A DNA stretch of 46,899 bases, from assembly GCF_003287405.1 (NCBI RefSeq), contig NZ_PRLD01000015.1, positions 1-46,899 of the forward strand, written 5' to 3'. Under the pieces are notes generated by a model. That model searched no databases, was not told the origin of the DNA, and saw only the letters and a program-made list of their open reading frames with translations. Every line of letters starts with the position of its first letter. Position 1 is the first letter of the stretch. This DNA is from Faecalibacterium prausnitzii. GTDB taxonomy: Bacteria > Bacillota > Clostridia > Oscillospirales > Ruminococcaceae. A program made the position numbers and the translations under genes. This document shows, in pieces, positions 1 to 15,054 of this stretch.

Positions 1-315
1 TTCCGGCTCTACAAGCAGATGGGCGAACCGCTCTACTGTGAAACGATGCGGCTGATCGTGGCAGCATGGGAGGGCAAACCGGATTCGTTCCGGGCCTCTG
101 TTCTGAAAGGCATGATGCACTTTGTGGAACTGTACCACGGCGAGTTCAACGAAGAACGGCTGCTCCGTGCGCTGCGCAACATCCACCCGGTCGATATTTA
201 TCGCATCGGGCAGGACGACCCCGCAAAGCTGCGCGGATGGAAAAAGTACGTTTTCCCCATCTACACCGCCTACAACGGCAAGTGCAGAAAAGACGCACTG
301 CCGATGAAATTCTGA
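1..315 (+). CDS. C-terminal fragment of a ParB/DUF6551-like mobile-element protein
   Basis: The frame is open from the first base of the window, so this is the 3' end of a longer gene; the first ATG in frame, at 19, need not be the start. The visible 104 residues contain an aromatic, helical segment (MRLIVAAWEGKPDSF, then LKGMMHFVELYHGEF) and end in NGKCRKDALPMKF. From memory this resembles the C-terminal half of DUF6551/ParB-like proteins common in clostridial conjugative elements, which often carry an N-terminal ParB-type fold; that part is outside the window. A 12-bp-stem hairpin follows the stop codon. Its neighbours (TnpW-like protein, serine recombinase) support a mobile-element setting. 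The family name is tentative. Confidence 0.45.
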   Translation, partial: FRLYKQMGEPLYCETMRLIVAAWEGKPDSFRASVLKGMMHFVELYHGEFNEERLLRALRNIHPVDIYRIGQDDPAKLRGWKKYVFPIYTAYNGKCRKDALPMKF

Positions 316-341
316 TATTCACAGGCATTCCTCCCATATAC

Positions 342-376
342 ACAAGGGGCATCCGCAAACCGCAGATGCCCCTTGT
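342..376 (+). terminator. Hairpin after the ParB/DUF6551-like gene
   Basis: A perfect 12-bp inverted repeat (342-353 with 365-376) with an 11-base loop lies 27 bases after the stop codon at 315. Only a short, broken T stretch follows, so it may be a weak terminator or an RNA-stabilising stem. Confidence 0.5.
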
Positions 377-430
377 TACATATTAAGACCCTATTATTTA
401 ATTATTAAAACACACAGGAAGGGTGATTGA

Positions 431-616
431 ATGGTCGATAAATTTTCTCAGGTCGCATCCAACATCCCTGCGGCTAATGCTGATACCAACAAACAGTATT
501 TGGTAATCAACGGCTATCCCGTTGTTTTCAGCTTCTCCAACGAACCGAACCCGGAAGCATTTGAACGTATCCGGGATATTCTGCTTGCCACAAGCTACAC
601 AAAGAAAGCGGGTTGA
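431..616 (+). CDS. TnpW-like small transposon protein
   Basis: A 61-residue protein with a good ribosome binding site (AGGAAGGG) ahead of its ATG. The centre alternates hydrophobic residues (QYLVINGYPVVFSFS) and is followed by an amphipathic helix (EAFERIRDIL). This matches, from memory, the short beta-hairpin-plus-helix layout of TnpW-type proteins encoded next to large serine recombinases in Tn4451-like and related conjugative elements. Their function is not established. It lies 139 bases upstream of the serine recombinase and probably shares its transcript. The family call rests on pattern and context only. Confidence 0.45.
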   Translation: MVDKFSQVASNIPAANADTNKQYLVINGYPVVFSFSNEPNPEAFERIRDILLATSYTKKAG

Positions 617-620
617 CATC

Positions 621-716
621 GTGGACGAAAACCTAAGCACTCGTTATACTGAGGATGGCTGTGGTGTTTTGGTCAGACAAAGAACCACGACCACCCGTTC
701 TTTGGCAACCGAATAG
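621..716 (+). CDS. Possible 31-aa peptide between the TnpW-like gene and the recombinase
   Basis: A GTG-started frame of 31 codons begins four bases after the stop of the TnpW-like gene. The product starts MDENLSTRYTEDGCG and ends in a Thr/Arg-rich tail. The tight spacing suggests translational coupling, and similar short frames with a 'YTxDG' motif occur, from memory, ahead of recombinases in clostridial elements. No function can be assigned, and it could be a chance frame. Confidence 0.3.
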   Translation: MDENLSTRYTEDGCGVLVRQRTTTTRSLATE

Positions 717-724
717 TACCCATT

Positions 725-755
725 CTCACTTCTATTATAAAGTGAGGAATCGAAA
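725..755 (+). promoter_or_regulatory. Hairpin sequestering the recombinase ribosome binding site
   Basis: CTCACTT (725-731) is the exact reverse complement of AAGTGAG (740-746), with an 8-base AT loop. The right arm contains most of the Shine-Dalgarno sequence (AGTGAGGA, 741-748) of the recombinase that starts at 756, so the stem would hide the site when folded. Confidence 0.5.
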
Positions 756-2369
756 ATGAATGAAATGAACAATCGCGTCTGCTGCCTGTACCGTGTTTCC
801 ACCGACAAACAGGTGGATTTCAACTCGAATCATGAAGCAGACCTTCCTATGCAGCGCAAGGCGTGTCACAAATTTGCCGAAGCGAAGGGCTGGGTCATCG
901 TCCATGAGGAACAGGAAGAGGGCGTGTCTGGCCACAAAGTCCGTGCAGAAGCCCGTGACAAGCTGCAAATCATCAAGGATTATGCCCGAAAAGGCAAGTT
1001 TGACATTCTGCTGGTGTTCATGTTCGATCGAATCGGACGCATCGCAGATGAAACGCCGTTTGTTGTAGAATGGTTTGTGCGAAACGGCATCCGGGTGTGG
1101 AGTACCCAAGAGGGTGAGCAACGATTCGACAACCACACTGACAAATTGTTGAACTATATCCGCTTCTGGCAGGCAGACGGTGAAAGCGAAAAAACTTCTG
1201 TCCGTACCCGTACCAGCCTGCGGCAGCTTGTGGAAGAAGGACACTTCAAGGGCGGCAGTGCGCCGTATGGTTATGACCTTGTGAAAAGTGGCCGCATCAA
1301 CAAGCGCAAGCACGAACTGTATGAACTGCACATCAACGAGCGTGAAGCTGCCGTAGTTCGGATTATTTTCGACAAGTATGTGCATGAAGGCTATGGACCG
1401 CAGCATATCGCAACTTATCTGAATGATAACGGCTACCGCGCAAGGTCTGGGAAATGCTGGCATCCGGCAAGTATCCGTGGAATGGTTCGGAACCTGACCT
1501 ATACAGGCGTTCTCCGCTGTGGGGATGCCCATTCGGAATTGCTGCAAGAGTTGCAGATCATCCCAGCGCAGCAGTTTGAAGCCGCCCAGCGTATCCGTGA
1601 AAATCGTTCTAACCGTGCAGCACAAGAATCCGAATATCGCGTTCCGCTGAACATTCACGGACAATCTCTGCTTTCGGGCAATGCTTATTGTGGACATTGC
1701 GGTGCAAAGCTGACCTTGACTTCCAGCCGGAAGTGGCGCAAGCTCTCCGATGGAACACTGGACGATACGCTCCGTGTCCGTTATACCTGTTACGGAAAGC
1801 TCCGTAAGCAGACCGGCTGCACCGGGCAGACGGGTTATACGGTACATATTTTGGATGAGATCATTGATAAGTCAGTCCGTCAGATCTTTTCCAAAATGAG
1901 AGGCATCCCGAAAGAGCAGATCATTACAAGGCGTTACGAGCGGGAAGTTGTCGAACGCAAGAATCATCTGCAAACTATTCAGGTAGAGCGGGATAAAGCC
2001 CAAAAAGACTTGATTTCCCTGAAAGCCGAGATTCTTGCCTGTATCAAAGGTGAGAGCGTCTTTCCCAAAGAAACCCTTGCCGAGATGATTACAGCGCAGG
2101 AGGAAAAACTTCGGGAATTGGATGCTCTTTATGAATCTTCCTATGCAGAAACAGAAAAAACTGCCGAACTGATGGACAACGTATCAAAACTGTACGAAGA
2201 ACTGATTTCTTTTTCTGATCTCTACGACAGTGCCAGTTTTGAAGCAAAGAAAATGATCGTCAATCAGCTTATCCGCAGGGTAGATGTTTATCGTGGGTAT
2301 CAGCTCAACATTACCTTCAACTTCGACCTTACGCCGTACATTGAAGGGGATGATACAACAGCCTGCTGA
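756..2369 (+). CDS. Large serine recombinase (site-specific integrase/transposase)
   Basis: A 537-residue recombinase that cuts and rejoins DNA through a phosphoserine intermediate, moving the element in and out of its target. The N-terminal resolvase domain has the nucleophile in LYRVSTDKQ (Ser15) and an arginine-rich catalytic segment around FDRIGR (about 92-97). A recombinase domain follows (APYGYDL to about 270). A zinc ribbon comes next (CGHC near 311-314 and a Cys pair near 345-355). A coiled coil (about 390-500) and a hydrophobic tail complete it. Length and order fit the TnpX/large-serine-integrase group. Codon use is less GC-rich than in the housekeeping genes, consistent with transfer. 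It ends about 175 bases before tRNA-Ala. Confidence 0.93.
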   Translation: MNEMNNRVCCLYRVSTDKQVDFNSNHEADLPMQRKACHKFAEAKGWVIVHEEQEEGVSGHKVRAEARDKLQIIKDYARKGKFDILLVFMFDRIGRIADETPFVVEWFVRNGIRVWSTQEGEQRFDNHTDKLLNYIRFWQADGESEKTSVRTRTSLRQLVEEGHFKGGSAPYGYDLVKSGRINKRKHELYELHINEREAAVVRIIFDKYVHEGYGPQHIATYLNDNGYRARSGKCWHPASIRGMVRNLTYTGVLRCGDAHSELLQELQIIPAQQFEAAQRIRENRSNRAAQESEYRVPLNIHGQSLLSGNAYCGHCGAKLTLTSSRKWRKLSDGTLDDTLRVRYTCYGKLRKQTGCTGQTGYTVHILDEIIDKSVRQIFSKMRGIPKEQIITRRYEREVVERKNHLQTIQVERDKAQKDLISLKAEILACIKGESVFPKETLAEMITAQEEKLRELDALYESSYAETEKTAELMDNVSKLYEELISFSDLYDSASFEAKKMIVNQLIRRVDVYRGYQLNITFNFDLTPYIEGDDTTAC

Positions 2370-2506
2370 AAAAACGGGCGGAAAACATTCCTTTTTGAAA
2401 ATGGTGTAAAGTCAAAAGTTGGGGGTTGTATAGGAACCGCCTGCAAAAGCCTGAAAACGGTGCAGGCGAAGCAATGCAGCCCCCAAAAATCGGCTTCAGC
2501 AAAAAG

Positions 2507-2543
2507 AAAAGCACCATACTTCCTACGAAGTACAGTGCTTTTT

Positions 2544-2544
<1 letters not shown>
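2507..2544. terminator. Bidirectional terminator between recombinase and tRNA-Ala
   Basis: AAAAGCAC (2507-2514) pairs with GTGCTTTT (2535-2542), with an inner TACTT/AAGTA stem. T-rich tracts flank it on both strands, so it can end rightward recombinase transcripts and leftward tRNA transcripts. Confidence 0.7.
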
Positions 2545-2619
<75 letters not shown>

Positions 2620-2623
2620 ATAA

Positions 2624-2647
2624 ATTCCAGAAGCAAGCCTCTGGAAT
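2624..2647. other. Perfect 8-bp stem-loop in the tRNA spacer
   Basis: ATTCCAGA and TCTGGAAT are exact reverse complements around an 8-base loop. No T tract follows on either strand. It may be a processing signal between the two tRNA units; nothing else is recognisable between 2620 and 2715. Confidence 0.3.
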
Positions 2648-2711
2648 GGAAAATCTTTAGTGGGAACTTAATCGTCATCAACCATCGCTGTGGGGGTGTG
2701 TTTCTGGGTGC

Positions 2712-2740
2712 ATCGCGCTCCCAGCTGAGCTAAACCCCCA
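2712..2740 (-). pseudogene. Truncated tRNA-Ala 5' fragment
   Basis: On the minus strand, the first 21 bases after 2739 read as the 5' part of a tRNA-Ala (acceptor strand, D stem and D loop), almost the same as the intact gene at 2619. Then GAGC is broken to GCGC and the similarity ends; there is no anticodon arm, T arm or CCA. It stands directly behind a consensus promoter, so it is likely the remains of the operon's first tRNA. Confidence 0.75.
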
Positions 2741-2772
2741 GATGTCTGGCCTGTTGCCTGACGACATGGGTT

Positions 2773-2801
2773 ATTATACCAGCCGGAGGGGCGCTTGTCA
2801 A
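2773..2801 (-). promoter_or_regulatory. Consensus promoter of the tRNA-Ala unit
   Basis: On the minus strand the -35 is TTGACA (2801-2796), followed by a 17-bp spacer and TATAAT (2778-2773). It points at the tRNA fragment (5' end 2739) and the intact tRNA-Ala beyond it. Confidence 0.9.
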
Positions 2802-2910
2802 CGGTTTTTTACAAAAATCTATTCTCTTTTTTCAGCGGCGCAGCGCACCCGGAAGCTTTTGACGCAGCTGCGTTTTTCCCGGGGCTGCTCTGCCGCAAAA
2901 GACTGCCGCA

Positions 2911-4518
2911 TTACCTGTCCCATTTGTCACACAGGGCGTTGATCTGGTCGGCAAATTTTGCCAGATCCTTATTTGCGCCGCCCTCGTTGTGCTCGATGAC
3001 CCGCAGCAGGCGCTTGCCGGCGCTGACCAGCCGCTGGAACACGGTAGCGGCGCGGTTTGCACCCTCGCCGGTCCTCTGCTCCACGCGGACTTTCGTGCCC
3101 TCCTGCAGGCAGACTGCGCCCTCGGCACCGATCGCCCACTGCGCACCGTTGTAGGGCGCACAGGCGGTAAAGCCCTGTTCGGTCAGGGTGTCCACAAAGC
3201 GGTTCTCCACCTCGTCCTCGCCGTGGATCACGAACACCCGCAGGGGCTTTTCTGTAAAGGCGTTCACCCAGCGCAGCAAGCCGTCTTTATCGGCGTGGCC
3301 GGACATTCCGGTCAGCTGGCAGATCTCCGCCTTCACCTCGATGGGCTCGCCGAACAGCTTGACCGAGTCCACCCCCTCGATGAGGGTGCGTCCCAAAGTG
3401 CCCACCGCCTGAAAGCCCACGAACAGGATCGTGCATTCCGGCCGCCACAGGTTGTGCTTGAGGTGGTGGCGGATGCGTCCGGCTTCGCACATTCCGCTGG
3501 CGGACAGGATGACCTTGGGCGTGCGGTCGGTGTTGATCATGCGGGAGTCCTCGCTGGTCACGCTGATGCGCAGCCCCGGCACGTTGATGGGGTCGATGCC
3601 CTTTTCCAGCAAAGCGCGGGTCTGGGCGTCAAAGCAGCCGGGGTCTGTATCCCGGAAGATGCGGGTGGCTTCGGTGGCCAGCGGGCTGTCGATGTAGACC
3701 GGGAAGTTGCCGTGCCCTTTGACCAGCCCTTTTTCCTTGATCTCCCGCAAAAAATACAGCATCTCCTGCGTGCGTCCCACCGCAAAGCTGGGCACTACCA
3801 CGTTGCCGCCCCGGTCAAAGGTGCGCTGCAAAATTTTTGCCAGCTCTGCCACATAGTCCGGTCGAGGGTCGTGGTTGCGGTCGCCGTAGGTGGACTCCAT
3901 GAACACATAGTCCGCCTGCTGGATATAGGTGGGGTCTTTGATGATGGGCTGCTCCAGATTGCCGATATCGCCGGAGAACACCAGCTTTGTGGTGGTGCTG
4001 CCCTCGGTGATCCACAGCTCGATGCTGGCAGAGCCCAACAGGTGTCCCACGTCCACAAAGCGTGCTTCGATGCCTGAGGCAAGCTGGACGCGCTTGTCGT
4101 ACTCCACGCCCCGGAACAGGCGGCAGGCGGCTTCGGCGTCCTGCACGGTGTACATGGGCTCTACCGGCTCTGCGCCGGAGCGTTTGCCCTTGCGGTTTTT
4201 CCACTCGGCTTCAAACTCCTGAATATGCGCCGAGTCCCGCAGCATGATGCCGCACAGTTCCACGGTGGGGATGGTGGCGTAGATCCTGCCCCGGAAGCCG
4301 TTGTGCGCCAGCAGCGGCAAAAGGCCGGTATGGTCGATATGGGCATGGGTGATGAGCACAAAGTCGATCTCGCCGGGGGCTACGGGCAGGGGCTGGTTCT
4401 CGTACACATTTTTGCCCTGCTCCATGCCGTAGTCGATGAGGAATCGCTGCCCTGCCGCTTCCAGCATGGTGCAGCTGCCGGTCACCTCGTGGTTCGCGCC
4501 TAAAAACGTAAGCTTCAA
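2911..4518 (-). CDS. Metallo-beta-lactamase/beta-CASP ribonuclease-like protein
   Basis: A 535-residue cytoplasmic metalloenzyme of the beta-CASP group (YSH1/CPSF73-like), expected to process RNA using two zinc ions. The zinc motif HAHIDH is at 58-63. Further metal ligands sit in VDVGHLLGSAS and FSGDIGN. The beta-CASP insertion includes VVVPSFAVGRTQE, and the C-terminal RMMBL part has GMSGHADKDGLL and VIHGEDE. Length is normal. The start is TTG at 4518: there is no ATG in the right place, the residues MKLTFLGANHEVTGS match the family's N-terminus, and GGAGGT sits 8 bases upstream. It is monocistronic and divergent from bipA. The substrate is unknown. Confidence 0.88.
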   Translation of the reverse strand: MKLTFLGANHEVTGSCTMLEAAGQRFLIDYGMEQGKNVYENQPLPVAPGEIDFVLITHAHIDHTGLLPLLAHNGFRGRIYATIPTVELCGIMLRDSAHIQEFEAEWKNRKGKRSGAEPVEPMYTVQDAEAACRLFRGVEYDKRVQLASGIEARFVDVGHLLGSASIELWITEGSTTTKLVFSGDIGNLEQPIIKDPTYIQQADYVFMESTYGDRNHDPRPDYVAELAKILQRTFDRGGNVVVPSFAVGRTQEMLYFLREIKEKGLVKGHGNFPVYIDSPLATEATRIFRDTDPGCFDAQTRALLEKGIDPINVPGLRISVTSEDSRMINTDRTPKVILSASGMCEAGRIRHHLKHNLWRPECTILFVGFQAVGTLGRTLIEGVDSVKLFGEPIEVKAEICQLTGMSGHADKDGLLRWVNAFTEKPLRVFVIHGEDEVENRFVDTLTEQGFTACAPYNGAQWAIGAEGAVCLQEGTKVRVEQRTGEGANRAATVFQRLVSAGKRLLRVIEHNEGGANKDLAKFADQINALCDKWDR

Positions 4519-6926: not shown

Positions 6927-6955
6927 TTGAAGAACACTAGTGGATGTGGTATACT
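6927..6955 (+). promoter_or_regulatory. Promoter of the secretion locus
   Basis: TTGAAG (6927-6932), a 17-bp spacer and TATACT (6950-6955). Transcription should start near 6962, leaving a leader of about 200 bases before the exporter gene at 7161. Confidence 0.8.
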
Positions 6956-6980
6956 TTTATAAGTTTATAGATGTAGAAAG

Positions 6981-7055
6981 GCTGCATGGCTTTCCCGCAT
7001 CCGCAGACAGGCGCTCCTCCGGTCAGAAAGCTGCCGTGCAGGAGCGCAGTTTTTT
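6981..7055 (+). promoter_or_regulatory. Leader attenuator candidate upstream of the C39 exporter
   Basis: GCGCTCCT (7011-7018) pairs exactly with AGGAGCGC (7040-7047) and is followed by AGTTTTTT (7048-7055), an intrinsic terminator inside the leader. An upstream segment, CTGCATGGCTTTC (about 6982-6994), is nearly complementary to GAAAGCTGCCGTGCAG (about 7026-7041), which overlaps the right arm of the terminator. The two folds would compete, as in an attenuator. No known riboswitch is recognised. The remaining leader to 7160 shows only the exporter's binding site. Confidence 0.5.
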
Positions 7056-7160
7056 CGTTGGTCAAATCAGCAGGCAGGCCGGCGGCTCTGTGCGGCAAGC
7101 ACGGGCGGCAGGGCGGCTTTGTGTCGTTTGAATAAATCTGTAGAATAAAAGGAAACATCT

Positions 7161-9545
7161 ATGCGTTATACCTACGTCCGGCAGCACGATACCACCGACT
7201 GTGCGGCTGCCTGTCTGGCCATGGTGTGCCTGCACTACAAAAAGGAAGTGACCATCACCCGCCTGCGGGATATGATGGGTACCGACCTGAAAGGCACTAA
7301 CCTTGTCGGCCTGCAAAAAGCCGCCAATGAACTTGGCTTTACCACCGCCGCAGTCCGCGTGGACCGCGAAAACTTCCTGAGCGACTTCTCGCTTCCCTGC
7401 ATTGCACAGGTGATCACCGATCAGGGTCTGGCTCACTTTGTTGTGGTGTTCAAAAAGACCACCATCAAGGACGAAGGCGCGCGCCGCAAGCATATGCTGC
7501 AGGACGCCGAGACCCGCAAGGAAGAAGAGAAAAAGGGCAAAAAGCATAAGTGCAAGGATTACGTCATCATCGGCGACCCCGGCACGGAGCTGAAAAAGAT
7601 CAGTCTGGACGAGTTCTACAAGAACTTTACCGGCGTGCTGCTGCTGCTGAACCCCACCTCCGAGTTCAAGGGCGGCAAGCTTGGCAGCAGGGACGGTAAA
7701 GACGGCAAGGACGGTAAGGACGGCAAGAGCGGCAAGTACGGCATGATGAAGCGGTATATCGACCTGCTTCTGCCCCAGAAAAAGCTGTTCTTCTACGCCA
7801 TCCTCAGCTCGGTGATCACCACCATTCTGGGCATCGCGTCCTCCATGTTCAATAAGATCCTGATGGACGAGGTGCTGCCCTACGGGCTGAATAACCTTTT
7901 GGTCACCCTGATCCTGGTGTTCAGCGTGGTCAGCATCACCAGCACGCTGATCGGCTTTGTGCGCCAGTGGGTGCTGATCCATCTGTCCATCAAGATCGAT
8001 ATCCCGCTGATGCTGGGCTACTTCGGGCACATCTTCAACCTGCCCATGAAGTTCTTTGCCACCCGCAAGACCGGTGATATCACCACCCGTTACTCGGACG
8101 CTGACACCATCAAATCCATCTTTACCAGCATTGCGCTGAGCCTTGTGATGGATATCTCCATGGCAGTCATCACCGGCATCATCCTGTTCCGCATGAACGC
8201 CATGCTGTTCTCCATCTCGCTGTTCATGGCACTGGTCAGCATCCTGCTGGTGCTGGTGTACAAGCAGCCCTATAAGCGGATCAACGAAGAGAGCATGGCA
8301 CAGTCTGCAGCGCTGAACAGCCAGATGATCGAGAGCCTGCGCGGCATCGAGACCGTCAAGTGCAACGCCAACGAGCAGACCGAGCTGGATAATCTGGAAC
8401 GCGAGTACATGAAGAGCCTGAAGATCAGCCTGCGCTCCAGCCGCATCAGCACCACGCAGGGTCTGATTTCCTCCTTCATCTCCACCGGCTTCAGTATGCT
8501 GACCACCTATGTGGGCATCAGTCAGGTGCTGAACGGCGAGATGACGCTGGGCGGCTTTATGGCATTCAGCACCCTGTCCAGCTACTTCACCTCCCCCCTG
8601 AGCAACCTGATCGGCCTGCAGATGCAGATCCAGGAAGCCAGCATCTCCATGAAGCGTCTGACCGAGATCATGGACTACCCCGCTGAGAACGAGACTGCCG
8701 AGGGTATGGAGCAGAGCGAGATGGAAAAGGTGGAGGGCGACATCGAGTTCAAGGACGTCACCTTCCGCTACGGCAACCGTGCCCCGGCACTGGATCATGT
8801 CAGCTTTACCATCCCCGCCGGCAAAAAGGTGGCGCTGGTGGGCAGCAGCGGCAGCGGCAAATCCACCATTACCAAGCTGCTGCTGAAGTACTACGACCCC
8901 GAGGACGGCGAGATCGATGTGAACGGCGTGAATCTGGCGGAGTACAGCAGCCACTCGGTGCGCCGCGCCATCGCCTATGTGCCCCAGAACGTTGAGCTGT
9001 TCAGCAAGACCATCTACGACAACATCCGCATCTCCCGCATGGACGCTACGCTGGACGAGGTGAAGGAAGCTGCCAAGAAGGCTGACGCGCACGAGTTCAT
9101 CCGCCACCTGCCGCTGCAGTACAACACCTATCTGGAGGAAGCCGGCAACGGCCTGTCCGGCGGTGAGAAGCAGCGCATCGCACTGGCGCGTGCCTTCCTG
9201 AAGGACTCCAACCTTTACATTCTGGACGAGTCCACCAGTAATCTGGACTTTGCCACCGAGACGCTGATCTTCAACATGATCTACGAGCAGCTGGCAGACC
9301 GCTCCATGCTGATCGTGGCGCACCGCCTTTCCACCATCCGTGACTGCGACCTGATCCTTGTGATGGATCACGGCAAGATCGTGGAGCGCGGCAACCATGA
9401 GGAACTGATGGCAAAGGATGGCCGCTATGCCGAGCTGTGGAATATGCAGCAGGGCATCTTCCGCAAGCGCAAAGCCGAGCCTGCTCCGCAGGCAGTTGCC
9501 GCTGTGGTGGAAGAGGACGACGACGGCGAGTCCATCACCTACTGA
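7161..9545 (+). CDS. Peptidase-containing ABC exporter (C39 family)
   Basis: A 794-residue inner-membrane exporter that should cleave a double-glycine-type leader from a small peptide and export it using ATP. The N-terminal C39 protease has Gln8, Cys14 (TTDCAAACL), His92 (LAHFVVVF) and Asp139 (IIGDPG). A Lys/Glu-rich insertion (about 100-132) separates His from Asp. A Gly-Lys-Asp repeat tract (about 172-194) joins protease to membrane domain, which has about six segments (200-470). The ATPase has Walker A (GSSGSGKST, about 560), signature LSGGEKQR (about 664) and Walker B (YILDES). AAAGGAAAC precedes the ATG. HlyD and surface-protein genes lie downstream. No precursor peptide was found nearby. 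Confidence 0.93.
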   Translation: MRYTYVRQHDTTDCAAACLAMVCLHYKKEVTITRLRDMMGTDLKGTNLVGLQKAANELGFTTAAVRVDRENFLSDFSLPCIAQVITDQGLAHFVVVFKKTTIKDEGARRKHMLQDAETRKEEEKKGKKHKCKDYVIIGDPGTELKKISLDEFYKNFTGVLLLLNPTSEFKGGKLGSRDGKDGKDGKDGKSGKYGMMKRYIDLLLPQKKLFFYAILSSVITTILGIASSMFNKILMDEVLPYGLNNLLVTLILVFSVVSITSTLIGFVRQWVLIHLSIKIDIPLMLGYFGHIFNLPMKFFATRKTGDITTRYSDADTIKSIFTSIALSLVMDISMAVITGIILFRMNAMLFSISLFMALVSILLVLVYKQPYKRINEESMAQSAALNSQMIESLRGIETVKCNANEQTELDNLEREYMKSLKISLRSSRISTTQGLISSFISTGFSMLTTYVGISQVLNGEMTLGGFMAFSTLSSYFTSPLSNLIGLQMQIQEASISMKRLTEIMDYPAENETAEGMEQSEMEKVEGDIEFKDVTFRYGNRAPALDHVSFTIPAGKKVALVGSSGSGKSTITKLLLKYYDPEDGEIDVNGVNLAEYSSHSVRRAIAYVPQNVELFSKTIYDNIRISRMDATLDEVKEAAKKADAHEFIRHLPLQYNTYLEEAGNGLSGGEKQRIALARAFLKDSNLYILDESTSNLDFATETLIFNMIYEQLADRSMLIVAHRLSTIRDCDLILVMDHGKIVERGNHEELMAKDGRYAELWNMQQGIFRKRKAEPAPQAVAAVVEEDDDGESITY

Positions 9546-9624
9546 CCGCATCCGCAACTCTTGCCCGGATGCAGCATAAGCTTTTTCCCGCCCGGCGGGA
9601 AACCGAAGAATGCCTCGTTATGGT

Positions 9625-9659
9625 GTGCCCGGAGGCAGACGCTTCCGGGCACCTTTTTG
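9625..9659 (+). terminator. Internal terminator after the exporter gene
   Basis: GTGCCCGGA (9625-9633) pairs with TCCGGGCAC (9644-9652), followed by CTTTTTG. It lies between the exporter and the GyrI-like gene, so distal genes may be expressed at a lower level or from their own promoter. Confidence 0.8.
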
Positions 9660-9704
9660 TTCCGGCTTACATTGAAAAAATAACAGGATTAGGGGTAATT
9701 TACT

Positions 9705-10160
9705 ATGAACGAGATCAAAGTTGCTGAAAACAAGACCCTCAAGCTGACCAATGTTCTCTCCCGCGTTGTGCAGCCGGAGGAGCTGGCAAACCTGCCGGTC
9801 ATCCTGACCCAGATGCAGAACTTTATGAAGAGCAACGGCGCACAGCCCATCGGCCCGCTGGTGCAGGCTATCGTGGAAGGCACCGGCCCGGACCATATGC
9901 CCGTCATGTACATGATGCAGCAGGCCACCCAGATGATCACCCAGATGGAGCCCGGCTACCACATGGACGCTGTGCTGCGGGTAAAGAACTGCTTGTACGC
10001 CCACTTTACCGGCCCTCTGGCCTTCAACCAGCTGGCCACCGCCAAGCTGCAGGTCCTGGCTTTTGAAAACGACATCAAGCTTAGCGGCAACAGCTACACC
10101 ATCTACGTCAATCAGGACGAGGACGACGGCGTGATCGACGTGTTTATGGAGACCAAATAA
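9705..10160 (+). CDS. GyrI-like effector-binding domain protein
   Basis: A 151-residue cytoplasmic protein without signal peptide or membrane segment. From memory it resembles stand-alone GyrI-like/AraC-effector-binding folds: an N-terminal strand (LKLTNVLSRVVQPEEL), a long helix (LPVILTQMQNFMKSNG), the strand-turn APIGPLVQAIVEG-like segment, the central VLRVKNCLYAHFTGP, and a closing strand pair ending in GVIDVFMETK. These domains bind small molecules or partner proteins and sometimes regulate transcription. It has no DNA-binding domain. It ends two bases before the HlyD-type gene starts, so the two are translationally coupled. A role in controlling or sensing the exported compound is a guess. 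Confidence 0.5.
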   Translation: MNEIKVAENKTLKLTNVLSRVVQPEELANLPVILTQMQNFMKSNGAQPIGPLVQAIVEGTGPDHMPVMYMMQQATQMITQMEPGYHMDAVLRVKNCLYAHFTGPLAFNQLATAKLQVLAFENDIKLSGNSYTIYVNQDEDDGVIDVFMETK

Positions 10161-10162
10161 TT

Positions 10163-11275
10163 ATGACAACGACCATTCAGAACCTTTCGGATCTGCAGGA
10201 CCGCCGGATCATGATGGACAAAAAGCTGCCCCCTTACGGGTACGCCTTTGTCATTCTGACCGGGCTGTTCATGATCTTTCTGGTGATCTGGAGCACCCAG
10301 ACCAACCGCATCTATGTCAGCCAGAACAGCGGTGTGGTGCAGGCCGCCAACAAGACCTACATCATGTCCAGCTACTCCGGCTCCATTACCGAGCTGTATG
10401 TCTCGGAGGGCAGCTATGTGAACGAGGGCGACCTGATCGCCCGGCTGAAGAGCACGGATCTGGATATGCAGAAGGACACCCTGCAGAGCCAGCTGGATAT
10501 CTACCAGAAGCAGCTGGATCAGTACAACAAGCTGCTCAAGTGCATTCAGGACGACACCAACTACTTCGACGAGACCAGCGCTGAGGATCAGCCCTACTAC
10601 TACCAGTACCAGACCTACAAAAGTCAGGTAGCACAAAAGACCTTTGACGCTTCTACCTATCAGGCTGCCGGCTACTCCGACACCCAGATCAAGGCTTTGA
10701 TGGAGCAGAACCAGAGTGAGCTGGAGTCCCTATACTACTCCACCATGCAGTCCATCTCCCAGAGCATCAACAGCGCACAGGTCAATGTGGACAACCTGCA
10801 GGCGCAGATGGATTCTTTGAACACCGGCGCCAACGATTACTTCATCTATGCGCCCACCTCCGGCGTGATCCACATGGACACCCCCTACAAGGAGGGCATG
10901 GTGCTGAGCGCCGGCTCTGCAATGGCTACTATTGCCAGCGAGAACGACGATCTGGAGATCGTGGCTATGGTGTCGGTGAACGACCGTCCCCTGCTGCACG
11001 TAGGCGACCCCTGCAAGATCGCCATCACCGGCCTGTCGGAGTATTCCTACGGCACGCTGACCGGCACCGTCACCTCCATTGACAGTGATGTGACCTCCAG
11101 CAACAGCACCTCCTACTACAAGATGACCATCAAGCCCGATGCCACCTATGTGGTGAGCCGCAGCGGCGACAAGGTGGATCTTGCCAACGGTATGAGCGTG
11201 ACCGCCCGCGTGGAATACGATCAGGTCACCTATTTTGAATATGCCATGGAGGCACTGGGCGTGCTGTTCCGCTAA
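10163..11275 (+). CDS. HlyD-family membrane fusion (adaptor) protein
   Basis: A 370-residue adaptor expected to work with the upstream ABC exporter at the cell surface. After a short cytoplasmic tail, one membrane segment (about 24-43, YAFVILTGLFMIFLVIW) is followed by a lipoyl/barrel-sandwich half (VSEGSYVNEGDLIARL). A coiled-coil hairpin (about 98-215) precedes the second lipoyl half (YAPTSGVIHMDTPYKEGMVLSAG). A beta-barrel C-terminus with GDPCKIAITGL completes it. This order is diagnostic of HlyD/EmrA-type proteins. It starts two bases after the previous stop, and the surface protein gene follows after 64 bases. Substrate specificity cannot be read from it. Confidence 0.88.
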   Translation: MTTTIQNLSDLQDRRIMMDKKLPPYGYAFVILTGLFMIFLVIWSTQTNRIYVSQNSGVVQAANKTYIMSSYSGSITELYVSEGSYVNEGDLIARLKSTDLDMQKDTLQSQLDIYQKQLDQYNKLLKCIQDDTNYFDETSAEDQPYYYQYQTYKSQVAQKTFDASTYQAAGYSDTQIKALMEQNQSELESLYYSTMQSISQSINSAQVNVDNLQAQMDSLNTGANDYFIYAPTSGVIHMDTPYKEGMVLSAGSAMATIASENDDLEIVAMVSVNDRPLLHVGDPCKIAITGLSEYSYGTLTGTVTSIDSDVTSSNSTSYYKMTIKPDATYVVSRSGDKVDLANGMSVTARVEYDQVTYFEYAMEALGVLFR

Positions 11276-11339
11276 AAGCGGACTGCACAGCACGGCAGGA
11301 TGCCCCCCTTTTACACCACCCCAAAGAGGTACAAACAAC

Positions 11340-12860
11340 ATGATTCGAACCGCAAAGAAACTGGCCGCCTGTGTGCTGATGCTGGGTGTGCTGGTATGCG
11401 GCACCGCCCTGAGCGCTGCCGCCGCCGGCCTGCCTGTTGAAGCGCAGAACGGCGTTTCACTGCCCTGGTCCAAGGATGTCCCTGCCGAGAGCATTTCCAC
11501 CGGCAGCTACTCTGCCAATATGCTGCTGGGCGCTTCCCAGCAGCTGTCCCCCGTGGTCAAGCCCAGTTACAGCACCGACTCTGTGGTCTTTTTGACCGAT
11601 GACAGCAGCGTGCTGACCGTAAGCAGCAGCGGCGTGGTGCAGGCTGTGGGCGTTGGCACTGCCACCATTACCGCAGCCGCCGGCAACCAGATCTGCGCCT
11701 ACACCATCGTGGTCTCCATGGACTCCTCCATGATCGTGACCGAGATGGACCTTTCCCTCTCCTCCAACACCATCTATGTGGGCAACTCGGTGTCGGCTTC
11801 ACTGCAGGTGCGCCCCAGTTCCGCTTCCAACTACGCCACCGTCACCCTGACCTCCTCTAACGAGAAGATCGCCACGGTGAACAGCTTTGGCCGCGTGACC
11901 GGCGTAGCGCCCGGCACTGCCACCATTACCGCTGCCTGCGGCTCGGTGGTGGCCACCACCACCGTTACGGTGCTTGCCCTGCCCACAGACTCCACCGGCA
12001 CAAGCGGCACTGTGTCCAGCAACAGCGGGCAGGTGATCACCCCCAGCACCAACTATATCGTGCTCAAGCCCGGTGCCACCCGCACCATCACGGCTAAAGC
12101 CACCCCTGCCAGTGCATCCCAGTCCTTCACCTTCAAGTCCGGCAACAGCAGCATTGCCACGGTCAGCCCCTCGGGCGTGGTCACGGCGGTGGGCACCGGC
12201 TCTACCTCCATTACCATTTCCAACGGCAAGGCCACTGCCATGGTCACGGTCATCGTGAACCGCTCGGCAGATGCTTCCTCCGGCAGCGACAACAGCAATG
12301 CCGACACCAATACCCCGGACGACAACACCTCCATCCCGCTGGACCCTGTGGTGCAGACCATTCAGGACAGCACGGAGGATCAGGTAGTGTTCAACCAGTC
12401 TGAGGTGCCCATCGTGACCGGCGAGATCCTGAACGCCCTGCGCACCACCGGCAAGACCCTGTGCGTGGTGGGCGACGGCTACACCATGAACGTTTCCGGC
12501 AAAAACGTAAAGAGCACCACCAGCGAGATCGACACCGCCATCACCTTTACCGAGAGTGAAGAGGGGCTGGAGTTTGAGCTGGACAACGGCCGTGCCCTTC
12601 CCTGCGCGGTGCAGCTGGAGCTGGATGTGAGCACCTACTCCCGCCTGTACCTGTACAACACCATCAGCAACAAGTGGCAGTACCTGAACAGCTACAAGGA
12701 CGGCGTGATCACCGCCGACACTGCCGGCCGCTACCTGCTGACCAACCAGAACCTGCGGTTCGGCAATATCAACTGGTCCTTCTTCATCGCCGGCGGCGTG
12801 GTTGTAATCCTGATCGCCGTGGTCTACATCGCGTTCAAGAAACGCTACTGGTTCTGGTAA
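11340..12860 (+). CDS. Secreted, membrane-anchored BIG2 (Ig-like) surface protein
   Basis: A 506-residue exported protein. The start is ATG at 11340, chosen because AGAGGT lies 9 bases ahead and a signal peptide begins there (IRTAKKLAACVLMLGVLVC to ALSAAAAG). Three bacterial Ig-like group 2 repeats follow (about 60-125, 135-210, 225-310), each with the hallmark ATVxxxGxVTxVxxGTxTITA pattern. A Ser/Asn/Asp-rich linker (about 315-335) and a beta-rich domain (about 345-470) come next. A C-terminal membrane helix (WSFFIAGGVVVILIAVVYIAF) has a positive KKRYWFW tail. There is no LPXTG motif. Last gene of the secretion locus, it has a strong terminator. Adhesion or export-scaffold roles are both possible. 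Confidence 0.85.
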   Translation: MIRTAKKLAACVLMLGVLVCGTALSAAAAGLPVEAQNGVSLPWSKDVPAESISTGSYSANMLLGASQQLSPVVKPSYSTDSVVFLTDDSSVLTVSSSGVVQAVGVGTATITAAAGNQICAYTIVVSMDSSMIVTEMDLSLSSNTIYVGNSVSASLQVRPSSASNYATVTLTSSNEKIATVNSFGRVTGVAPGTATITAACGSVVATTTVTVLALPTDSTGTSGTVSSNSGQVITPSTNYIVLKPGATRTITAKATPASASQSFTFKSGNSSIATVSPSGVVTAVGTGSTSITISNGKATAMVTVIVNRSADASSGSDNSNADTNTPDDNTSIPLDPVVQTIQDSTEDQVVFNQSEVPIVTGEILNALRTTGKTLCVVGDGYTMNVSGKNVKSTTSEIDTAITFTESEEGLEFELDNGRALPCAVQLELDVSTYSRLYLYNTISNKWQYLNSYKDGVITADTAGRYLLTNQNLRFGNINWSFFIAGGVVVILIAVVYIAFKKRYWFW

Positions 12861-12889
12861 GCGCCCCTGCTCTTCCCGCATATAACAAG

Positions 12890-12930
12890 CCGCCCGCTGC
12901 ACACCATTTCGTGCAGCGGGCGGTTTTTTG
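12890..12930 (+). terminator. Terminator of the secretion locus
   Basis: CCGCCCGCTGCAC (12890-12902) pairs with GTGCAGCGGGCGG (12911-12923), then six T residues; it lies between converging genes. Confidence 0.92.
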
Positions 12931-12945
12931 TTCTATTCTCCCCTG

Positions 12946-14766
12946 TTACTCCACCGTTACGCTCTTGGCAAGGTTGCGGGGCTTATCCACGTCGCAGCCG
13001 CGCAGCACCGCCATGTAGTAGGCGAACAGCTGCAAGGGCACGATGAGCTGCAGCGGCATCAGGATGTCGTCGTACTCGTCCAAGCGGATGACCTCGGTGG
13101 CAACGCCCTCCGGCACTTCCGCGTCCTTTGTGGTGAACAGCAGCACCCGTGCGCCGCGGCTGCGGGTCTCCTTGGCGTTGGAGATGGTCTTTTCGTAGAC
13201 GTTTTTCTGGGTCGCCAGCGCGATGACCGGCACGCCGTCCGTGATCAGGCTGATGGTGCCGTGCTTCAGCTCGCCTGCCGCGTAGGCATCCGAGTGCACA
13301 TAGCTGATCTCCTTCAGCTTCAGGCTGCCCTCCAGCGAAAGGGCGTAGTCGAACCCACGCCCGATGAAAAAGCAGCTCTGGGTGTTCACATAGCGGCTGG
13401 CAAGGTACTTGATCTGCTCGCAGTCCGCAAGGCGGGGCTTGATGACCTCGGATGCGTGCAGCAGCTGGGCGGTGTAGTATTTGGTCTTTTCCTCGGTCAG
13501 CTGCCCGCGCGCATAGGCCAAGCGCAGGGCAAACAGGTACAGCACGCACAGCTGCACCATATAGGCCTTGGTAGACGCCACCGCGATCTCGGGCCCGGCG
13601 TAGGTGTACATGACGTAATCCGCCGCCCGGGCGATGCTGCTGCCCACCACGTTCACGATGGCAAGCACCGGCACGCCCCGGCTCTTAGCCAGCTTGAGGG
13701 CGGCCAGCGTATCGCTGGTCTCGCCGGACTGACTGATGATGATGACCAGATCCTCCGGCTTCAGGATGGGGTCGCGGTAGCGGAACTCGCTGGCGATATC
13801 CACCTCTGCGGGCACCCGCGCCAGCGCTTCGATGGCGGTCTTGCCCACCATACCGGCGTGCATGGCTGTGCCGCAGCCCACCAGATGCACTGTGCCGATG
13901 CTGCGCAGCTTTTCGTCCGTCAGTTCCGGGATGCGCAGCTCCGGCAGGCCGTTCTCCACCCGGGGGCTGACCGTTGCCGTGATGGCGGCGGGCTCCTCGT
14001 TGATCTCCTTGAGCATAAAGTGGGGGTAGCCGCCCTTTTCGGCTGCTTCCATGTCCCAGTCTGCGGTCAGCTTTTCGCGCTCCACCGCCTCGCCGAACTC
14101 GTTATAGAAGCGGATGCCCTGTGCCGTGCACACCGCCATGTCCCCTTCTTCCAGCACGCTGTAGCTGCGGGTGTACTTGAGCAGCGCCGGGATATCCGAT
14201 GCCACAAAGTTTTCGCCCTCGCCCCAGCCCACGATGAGCGGGCTTTCCCGCTTGACCGCAAAGATGGTGTCCGGGTAGTCCTTGAACAGCACCGCCAGCG
14301 CGTAGCTGCCCCGCACCTTGGCAAGCGCAGCCTGCAAAGCCTGCAGCGGCTCGCCCTGATAGCAGCTGTCGATGAGCTTTACCAGCACCTCGGTGTCGGT
14401 CTCGCTGGTAAAGGTGTAGCCTTTGGCGACAAGGCGCTCCTTCAAAGCGCCGTAGTTTTCAATAATGCCGTTGTGCACGATGCTGACCCGGGGCGTGGAG
14501 TGCGGGTGGCTGTTCACATCGCTGGGCTCGCCGTGGGTCGCCCAGCGGGTATGACCGATGCCGCAGCCGCTTTGGGGCAGCGCCAGCTCTTCCAGTTTGC
14601 TGCGCAGGGTGGAGAGCCGCCCCTTGCTTTTGACCACGCGGATGCCGTCCCGCTGGGTAAGCGCTACACCGGCAGAATCGTACCCGCGGTACTCCAGCTT
14701 TTCCAAACCGTCCAGCAGCACCTGCTGAGCGCTGCGCATCCCGACATAACCTACAATGCCACACAT
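12946..14766 (-). CDS. glmS: Glutamine-fructose-6-phosphate aminotransferase (isomerising)
   Basis: A 606-residue enzyme making glucosamine-6-phosphate, the entry step to peptidoglycan amino sugars. The N-terminal glutamine amidotransferase starts MCGIVGYVG, so Cys2 becomes the nucleophile after Met removal; it includes GHTRWATHGEPS. Two SIS sugar-isomerase domains follow, with GCGTAMHAG and SQSGETSDT in the first. The C-terminus ends NLAKSVTVE, as expected for the family. GGAGGT precedes the ATG. A glmS ribozyme lies just upstream, so mRNA stability should be controlled by glucosamine-6-phosphate, the enzyme's own product. Confidence 0.98.
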   Translation of the reverse strand: MCGIVGYVGMRSAQQVLLDGLEKLEYRGYDSAGVALTQRDGIRVVKSKGRLSTLRSKLEELALPQSGCGIGHTRWATHGEPSDVNSHPHSTPRVSIVHNGIIENYGALKERLVAKGYTFTSETDTEVLVKLIDSCYQGEPLQALQAALAKVRGSYALAVLFKDYPDTIFAVKRESPLIVGWGEGENFVASDIPALLKYTRSYSVLEEGDMAVCTAQGIRFYNEFGEAVEREKLTADWDMEAAEKGGYPHFMLKEINEEPAAITATVSPRVENGLPELRIPELTDEKLRSIGTVHLVGCGTAMHAGMVGKTAIEALARVPAEVDIASEFRYRDPILKPEDLVIIISQSGETSDTLAALKLAKSRGVPVLAIVNVVGSSIARAADYVMYTYAGPEIAVASTKAYMVQLCVLYLFALRLAYARGQLTEEKTKYYTAQLLHASEVIKPRLADCEQIKYLASRYVNTQSCFFIGRGFDYALSLEGSLKLKEISYVHSDAYAAGELKHGTISLITDGVPVIALATQKNVYEKTISNAKETRSRGARVLLFTTKDAEVPEGVATEVIRLDEYDDILMPLQLIVPLQLFAYYMAVLRGCDVDKPRNLAKSVTVE

Positions 14767-14839: not shown

Positions 14840-15006
14840 ATGTTCTTGTATGGCTTTCTTTGCAGGGTTCTGTTCCGGTATTGCTGCCGGTTTTTGCCCT
14901 GTTCTGCGGCTGGTATAGCCCTCAGCCGGAGAAACATCCGCCGAATCTTTCGATGATCCCTCTCCTCGTCACCCTCACGGCTGTCACCCGTGTGGCCCGG
15001 CGCTTT
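14840..15006 (-). ncRNA. glmS ribozyme (GlcN6P-responsive self-cleaving riboswitch)
   Basis: On the minus strand, a GCGCC 5' core begins at 15003, with predicted cleavage between A15004 and G15003. The conserved core GACGAGGAGAGGGATCATCG is at about 14976-14957. AAGATTCGGCGGATG and a CTCCGG pairing strand follow immediately. The pseudoknot-side region GCAAAGAAAGCCATACAAG lies near 14866-14848. Order and spacing match known glmS ribozymes, and it sits about 75-240 bases ahead of the glmS ATG. The 3' limit is approximate. Confidence 0.9.
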
Positions 15007-15054
15007 GCGTCAGCTTGCGGTACACATTCCTTCTTTCAATGGATTTTTTGGGGC

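Follow-up and report, generated by a model that had tools for sequence, protein, structure and literature searches.

What does an exporter carry when no precursor gene lies beside it, and why would it be accompanied by two proteins that are not standard parts of such loci? The question is raised by a 46,899-nucleotide stretch of Faecalibacterium prausnitzii DNA (the window; contig NZ_PRLD01000015.1 of assembly GCF_003287405.1, here contig C11 of the 3.03-Mb genome G000), in which a peptidase-bearing exporter (PCAT), a GyrI-like protein, an HlyD-family adaptor and a membrane-anchored BIG2 protein are encoded in a row. The results of this study indicate that this gut bacterium probably uses the window exporter for the anti-inflammatory protein MAM (Microbial Anti-inflammatory Molecule) and for at least five other proteins. 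That the locus is a one-exporter, many-cargo secretion system in which the neighbouring genes act as partners is considered likely as a combined statement; its first component, an exporter plus a dispersed cargo set, would be very likely on the basis of the sequence comparisons. The features on which the argument depends are as follows.

7161-9545, + strand: PCAT, with C39 peptidase, ABC transmembrane and ATPase parts, 794 amino acids; presumed MAM exporter (open reading frame, Pfam, TIGR01193, GIETVK signature)
7167-7661, + strand: C39 peptidase domain, in two Pfam pieces (7167-7460 and 7554-7661) flanking a Lys-rich insert (Pfam, catalytic residues)
9546-9704, + strand: precursor slot between PCAT and the GyrI-like gene, empty here (genus slot comparison)
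9610-9659, + strand: terminator-like element, ATGCCTCGTTATGGTGTGCC plus hairpin (9625-9652) and T-run (mismatch scan)
9705-10160, + strand: GyrI-fold protein, 151 amino acids, conserved partner (fold, linkage)
10163-11275, + strand: HlyD-family membrane adaptor, 370 amino acids (Pfam)
11340-12860, + strand: BIG2 protein, 506 amino acids, three Big_2 stretches (Pfam)
12837-12857, + strand: codons of the conserved C-terminal tail of BIG2, KKRYWFW (tail comparison)

All four open reading frames run rightward as one unit, as a sequence-only reading of the window had proposed, with intergenic gaps of 159, 2 and 64 bases, and the labels it gave to the exporter, HlyD and BIG2 proteins were borne out by Pfam matches (Peptidase_C39, 4.8e-32, ABC_membrane, 1.4e-43, and ABC_tran, 1.4e-34, for PCAT; HlyD_3, 1.4e-19; Big_2, 2.3e-30). 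The window PCAT also passes the NCBIfam model TIGR01193 (565.7 bits; cut-off 523.85). An NHLP/NHLM exporter identity was considered and rejected, the TIGR03796 score of 482.9 being below the cut-off of 853.3. Gln8, Cys14, His92 and Asp139, which we take to be the oxyanion Gln and the catalytic Cys, His and Asp, are intact in all 32 PCATs compared, and the loss of these residues in relatives, named beforehand as evidence that would count against an export function, was therefore not seen. Cys14 is described as the catalytic residue in PMC12184118. The published exporter signature GIE[TL][VI]K is present as GIETVK in the window, occurs in 25 of the 25 genus PCATs tested and is absent from all seven outside ones tested, and the C39 domain of PCAT is the only one found in G000. 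As to PCAT architecture, the region 7450-7740 encodes a Lys-rich insert, which separates His92 from Asp139, and a GKDGKDGKDGK linker; the Faecalibacterium PCATs of loci L062, L066 and L080 have the insert without the window's linker repeat, and the outside PCATs of L210 and L212 have neither. The PCAT gene of L065 (genome G030, a single-contig genome) is interrupted by a frameshift within a run of A and reads as two frames; this may be a sequencing error or a real loss.

The pairing of this exporter with MAM is already proposed in print; statements about the literature, here and below, refer to the covered sections of the papers named. PMC8836110 reports that mam adjoins PCAT in some strains and lies apart in others, that three open reading frames, among them an HlyD-like and an Ig-like one, accompany PCAT, and speculates that PCAT exports MAM. 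PMC12184118 adds modelling and the signatures MMMPANx(8,11)VxGG for MAM and GIE[TL][VI]K for PCAT, identifies MAM as the most abundant envelope protein, and finds that peptides of LiCl-extracted MAM cover all but the first 21 residues.

At the window locus the sequence-only reading had found no precursor peptide, and this holds as far as two scans go: a regular-expression scan of the window for double-glycine (GG) frames of 25-110 amino acids with a ribosome-binding site returned two, both implausible and outside the unit, and no frame of at least 60 amino acids lies inside the gap at 9546-9704. The substrate, it had suggested, may be encoded elsewhere, and a genome search for double-glycine leaders revealed at least six leader-bearing proteins in G000, all on other contigs. 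Model A1, built from 21 MAM rows that include none of G000, identified the MAM gene at C29:157114-157533 (E-value 1.4e-36), so that mam and PCAT are not adjacent in the window, together with five further proteins (E-values 1.6e-5 to 0.0096) in which the match is the leader or little more. These comprise a tandem pair (C6:12813 and C6:13225) and genes at C18:367322, C38:203163 and C14:5433, and form four further cargo classes at four more places. Measured from the match start, the six cargos are 72-149 amino acids long and combine a common leader with dissimilar remainders. Since some rows of the leader-only model (A2) come from G000, an independent model built from 14 leaders of other genera was tested on 1501 frames from the window and five G000 stretches; the six cargos were its six best frames (41.3-13.5 bits), followed by a frame at 9.1 bits, and the best of 20 shuffles reached 7.9 bits. 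Because a common leader is found on six dispersed proteins, one exporter would serve the dispersed set.

The same pattern extends to the sample of 31 Faecalibacterium genomes. Model A2 gave 3-9 leader matches at E-values of 0.1 or less in 27 of these, and none in G008, G017, G018 and G027, from which all four genes of the unit are also absent (leader versus exporter co-occurrence, Fisher p 1.6e-4, with genome G002 counted against the pairing). Genus-wide, 130 leader-bearing frames fell into eight cargo clusters (53, 34, 25, 13, 2, 1, 1 and 1 members; single linkage at a BLAST E-value of 1e-3, after the short-leader MAMs of L079 and L082 had been dropped). Among 89 distinct leader rows, P(-18) occurs in 88, Y(-15) in 70 and F(-15) in 15, L, V, I or M(-12) in all 89, E(-8) in 87, M(-7) in 86 and Y(-5) in 86, mostly followed by T, L, V or I(-4) and then G(-2)G(-1); the odd row without P(-18) was cut one residue out of register, and the rows were picked by the MAM model and by GG, which biases them toward similarity. 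All published evidence seen concerns MAM (PMC8836110, PMC12184118), and the slot genes of the genus are mam or a close paralogue, as would be expected if PCAT exported MAM only and the other leader-bearing proteins were relics or took another route. However, a second C39 domain was not found in G000, the clusters of non-MAM cargos are widely distributed, being represented in 25, 25 and 13 genomes, and four of the five non-MAM G000 leaders beat MAM's own when compared with leaders of other genera, the C14 leader being weaker; a MAM-only exporter is thus improbable. Beside the C14 cargo lies a further leader-like frame (L119, 42-326), and in the same locus (42-4218) two leader-like frames of 94 amino acids flank apparent surface-polysaccharide genes, judged by eye to encode a sugar transferase and a polymerase-like membrane protein.

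The absence of mam from the window locus can be placed in the history of the genus. GyrI-like and full-length HlyD genes were identified in 26 of the 31 genomes, PCAT in the same 26 (in two frames in G030), and BIG2 in these plus G002. A gene beginning MMMPAN occupies the slot between PCAT and GyrI-like in 18 of the 26 loci. The slots without mam belong to G000, G005, G009, G022, G026, G028, G029 and G030; all eight genomes contain a MAM gene elsewhere, approximately 67 to 749 kb away in the five that are single contigs. In the PCAT tree the empty-slot genomes form one clade with support of 100/99 (seven of the eight placed, G030 being left out), and the PCAT of G026 is 96% identical to that of the window. 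A mismatch scan found the slot element ATGCCTCGTTATGGTGTGCC in 26 of 26 slots with no more than three mismatches. In all 18 mam-bearing slots it starts 60-92 bases past the last mam stop (11 exact, four with one mismatch and three with two), and it is also exact in the empty slots of G000, G005, G022 and G026. A scan of 76 further loci, relocated mam genes included (985 kb, both strands counted), did not find the element, while a weaker match (2-3 mismatches) lies near the PCAT start in some loci. Since the element is retained in empty slots and these fall in one clade, the slot was most likely emptied once, the element being left behind as the remainder of a mam unit; on this comparison mam would formerly have stood between PCAT and GyrI-like and would have left in the ancestor of the window's clade.

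Several slots have contents of their own. Nine (L068, L070-L073 and L075-L078) contain two tandem mam-type genes, the second starting MTFPANYAV, and L077 has a second leader-bearing paralogue beside a MAM copy without GG. In the slots of L074 and L079-L083 a frame resembling DUF559 (a name given by eye, following PMC8836110) stands alongside mam in several genomes. The relocated mam of G000 (L115, contig C29) lies between SpoIIGA-like and NAD-synthase-like genes, again named by eye, which agrees with a published note of mam near sporulation genes (PMC8836110).

What are the two unusual genes doing beside this exporter? The order PCAT, GyrI-like, HlyD, BIG2 on one strand, which the sequence-only reading had proposed to compare across the genus, is kept in 26 of 26 loci, i.e., in every genome where GyrI-like was found, so the arrangement of genes is not due to chance. 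The 151-amino-acid protein has no family match above cut-off (Pfam, DsrH only, at the chance-level E-value of 0.2; NCBIfam, none), and the GyrI-like label is therefore not confirmed by sequence families. A sequence search of solved structures with A3 likewise returned one chance-level match (E-value 0.2). Where sequence families failed, the label stood by fold: an AlphaFold2 model from wider rows (pLDDT 93.7, pTM 0.87) gave 42 Foldseek matches in the PDB at E-values of 1e-3 or less, the best being GyrI-superfamily proteins, and a model from genus rows only (pLDDT 62.4) gave nothing at that threshold, with GyrI-like proteins as its eight best matches. The GyrI fold is considered confirmed on these predicted structures. 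Proteins with this fold bind hydrophobic drugs and antibiotics, a point taken partly from structure-entry titles. K10, T11, K13, L14 and N16 are conserved in all 33 GyrI-like rows. The idea that this protein is itself an export substrate was rejected on account of these residues, the absence of a GG leader and the GyrI fold. No GyrI-like relatives were found in the plasmid collection.

The BIG2 protein has, as judged by eye, a signal-peptide-like N terminus and a C-terminal membrane helix, and it ends in [KR][KR][YH]WFW in all 27 genus copies (G002 included) and in six of six full-length outside copies. No other window frame of at least 100 amino acids ends in W[FY]W, and within the open-access literature neither KRYWFW nor KKYWFW was found in the YWFW-bearing papers listed, which are unrelated. 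Such constancy bears on the idea that GyrI-like and BIG2 are passengers that adjoin the exporter by coincidence, the first perhaps a binder of drugs and the second an ordinary surface protein. The nearest folds of the former are indeed drug or antibiotic binders (CTR107, BmrR, STM3175, CtaZ), and a lone GyrI-like copy occurs in G480; nevertheless, with linkage in 26 of 26 genus loci, the tail in 33 of 33 full-length BIG2 copies, HlyD after GyrI-like in 11 of the 15 loci outside the genus (where GyrI-like is 33-45% identical), and a GyrI-like gene also listed in the pneumococcal rtg locus (PMC7018657), the passenger explanation is highly improbable.

Those outside loci come from a genome-contig scan with GyrI-like, which identified 34 loci, 19 in Faecalibacterium and 15 elsewhere; among the latter, the L212 record is marked UNVERIFIED_CONTAM and several are metagenome-assembled. 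Nine of the 15 have PCAT (whole, partial or in pieces) upstream of GyrI-like and 11 have HlyD directly after it, while a leader-bearing precursor occurs in 11, eight of them in the PCAT-GyrI slot. BIG2 follows HlyD in seven, with contigs ending earlier in L213, L214 and L216; L221 has a different gene order, and L222 and L223 contain GyrI-like alone, with a stop or partial. In the order sample one of 389 non-genus genomes (G229) has GyrI-like, with a leader on the same contig, and the other leader match (G376) falls within a frame of 23 amino acids. In the phylum sample (397 genomes besides G000), leaders were identified in G657, G681 and G779, and GyrI-like in G480, G681 and G787. G681 has a run of PCAT, GyrI-like, HlyD and multiple precursors that does not include BIG2, and in G657 and G779 the leader gene is next to partial HlyD or PCAT pieces. 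Unlinked GyrI-like or full-length BIG2 genes in relatives had been named as a finding that would weigh against linkage; none occurs in the genus except the contig-end BIG2 of G002, whereas outside it GyrI-like does stand alone in G480. The proposal of an export system with dedicated partners thus stands, in that GyrI-like and BIG2 stay beside the exporter throughout the genus, and in other families with less regularity. From these sequences, the odd partner genes would be recurring parts of a wider exporter family in several Bacillota.

The outside loci also bear on the possibility of a bacteriocin export locus, whose cargos would be class II-like bacteriocins directed at neighbouring bacteria. 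Two of five outside-family precursors exceed the Bacteriocin_IIc (PF10439) cut-off (29.7 and 28.2 versus 27.1), and none of the nine Faecalibacterium cargos tested reaches it (best 13.9). Small frames after the precursors in G681 and G657 have, by eye, an immunity-gene-like placement, but no obvious immunity gene was seen by eye beside the G000 cargos. PCAT is above the TIGR01193 cut-off, sub-threshold matches to bacteriocin families were obtained for some cargos (e.g., TIGR03893, 19.2 versus 32.95) and for BIG2 (NF053514, 17.8 versus 40), and the rtg peptides are speculated by their authors to be bacteriocins (PMC7018657). On the other hand, the window locus has no local double-glycine precursor of the kind expected in class II bacteriocin loci, the G000 cargos are 72-149 amino acids long with cargo classes widely kept in the genus, and one of them, MAM, is reported as the most abundant envelope protein (PMC12184118). 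A bacteriocin function is therefore considered unlikely.

In the preferred reading of one exporter with many cargos, the C39 domain would read the double-glycine leader with its extra N-terminal element, P(-18)xxY(-15), cut after GG and export the rest, as suggested by published MAM work together with leader conservation. In this way a single PCAT would serve MAM together with five or more further proteins, whose genes lie at four additional places in the genome. HlyD would act as the exporter's adaptor. On the cytosolic side, the GyrI-fold protein would most likely bind hydrophobic cargo or leader before export, and the membrane-anchored BIG2 protein may extend its Ig domains through the wall with its WFW tail near the exporter, helping exported surface proteins, for example those of the MAM lattice, to exit or assemble.

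It is also important to note the observations that weigh against this reading. The published PCAT-MAM pairing is based on modelling, docking and proteomics (PMC8836110, PMC12184118), and one envelope replicate contained a peptide still carrying the MAM leader (PMC12184118). That the window PCAT would cleave and export each of the six cargos, MAM among them, is a prediction. The C14 cargo has the weakest leader, at 13.5 bits, a MAM copy in L077 (5683-6024) is without the GG cut site, and the MAM leaders of L079 and L082 are shortened (NAEVVYGG). G002 (77% complete, 240 contigs) has four leader matches, and PCAT, GyrI-like and HlyD were not found in it; the contig carrying its BIG2 stops about 180 bases away, on the flank where HlyD is expected, and the gap is therefore read as missing assembly. 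The four leader-negative genomes may be one lineage, in which case the co-occurrence may be one event. Both leader and GyrI-like occur in only one of the five phylum-sample genomes with either, besides G000 (overlap p 0.02), and GyrI-like is intact but solitary in G480 and broken in G787. L217, L221 and L254 have HlyD, and BIG2 was not seen in the DNA covered. The slot element could serve a function of its own rather than being a relic. Finally, the role given to either partner, GyrI-like or BIG2, is drawn from fold and position and is tentative, with somewhat less than an even prospect of being right.

A broader version of the hypothesis is that PCAT, the GyrI-fold protein, HlyD and BIG2 with its WFW tail make up a distinct general secretion system of Gram-positive-type bacteria, with genome-wide P(-18)-leader cargos that build a protein coat including MAM. 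This version is possible but rather doubtful; under it the GyrI-fold protein would be a cytosolic chaperone, BIG2 a wall-spanning Ig-domain exit factor and the cargos mid-sized, and if it were true, the anti-inflammatory action on the host would belong to a multi-protein coat and not to MAM alone. If the narrower reading is right, the candidate surface and host-acting factors of this gut bacterium extend past MAM, and two unstudied genes, GyrI-like and BIG2, gain a testable place in PCAT export. The exit route of MAM matters in itself, as this is an envelope-abundant protein of a health-associated gut bacterium (PMC12184118).

The dispersed cargos, the emptied slot, the conservation of the partners beyond Faecalibacterium and the resemblance to the rtg leader type appear to be new within the literature searched. 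None of the five non-MAM G000 cargos starts MMMPAN, and the published motif search would therefore miss them. In the covered sections of PMC8836110 and PMC12184118, MAM is the only leader-bearing cargo described; the third open reading frame is not assigned a GyrI fold, and neither a family beyond Faecalibacterium nor the slot element is mentioned. In the portions covered, the co-expression paper PMC9674144 mentions MAM twice and an ABC transporter never, PMC4573289 has Faecalibacterium only within a reference, and the preview of a class II bacteriocin atlas (PMC12648078) contains no Faecalibacterium, although the full atlas may list some precursors. Searches of the open-access literature returned no paper beyond the MAM one for the leader peptide strings of the non-MAM cargos, and no paper treating a GyrI-fold gene as part of a PCAT locus.

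Two further features lie at the ends of the four-gene unit.

6927-6955, + strand: promoter-like site, TTGAAG, 17 nucleotides, TATACT with a preceding TG (consensus scan only, 9/12 matches; no evidence of function)
12887-12926, + strand: terminator-like hairpin at the unit end (hairpin scan)

A tRNA-Asn gene lies upstream of the unit. In the 5' leader, a GC-rich hairpin followed by a T-run (7009-7052, about 110 bases upstream of PCAT) is a possible attenuator; folding of the leader as a whole is little stronger than that of shuffled sequences (z -1.8), and no Rfam element was found in this leader above the gathering score. Downstream, the unit's neighbour is a gene on the - strand (12946-14766), preceded by a glmS ribozyme (14852-15015, - strand).

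Compared with known systems, the window locus shares its exporter with the published MAM-PCAT locus, and in both an HlyD gene and an Ig-domain gene are linked to it; that work treats MAM as the cargo (PMC8836110, PMC12184118). The closest solved exporter by sequence is PCAT1 of Acetivibrio (Clostridium) thermocellus (4ry2, 8vp3; E-value about 2e-155; organism from PMC12184118), whose alignment with the window C39 domain spans the catalytic Cys and His, while the Lys-rich insert before Asp139 and the GKDGKDGKDGK linker distinguish the window PCAT from it. The 151-amino-acid protein matches the GyrI superfamily (CTR107, BmrR ligand domain, STM3175, CtaZ, SbmC) in fold, with TM-scores of 0.60-0.70 to CTR107, but differs in its 10-17% identity, its lack of a Pfam model match and its position in an exporter operon.

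The comparison with the pneumococcal rtg locus concerns the leader. By experiment, RtgAB was found to recognize a signal element at the N-terminal end (positions -22 to -18, including P(-18)) that was unique so far as the authors knew, and RtgG has Y, L, M and L at -15, -12, -7 and -4 (PMC7018657). The Faecalibacterium leaders have the same register, P(-18), Y/F(-15), L/V/I/M(-12) and M(-7), so that an element thought unique to RtgAB is now linked to a family across several Bacillota. Table 2 of PMC7018657 lists rtgX, a 'GyrI-like hypothetical protein', in 21.1% of 318 loci, a value equal to the sum of intact and disrupted rtgB (18.6 + 2.5%); the likeness of rtgX to the window protein is by published label alone. 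As described in the covered sections, the rtg locus is compact and quorum-controlled, has local peptides and lists no BIG2 (PMC7018657), whereas the cargos of the window system are larger, dispersed and widely kept.

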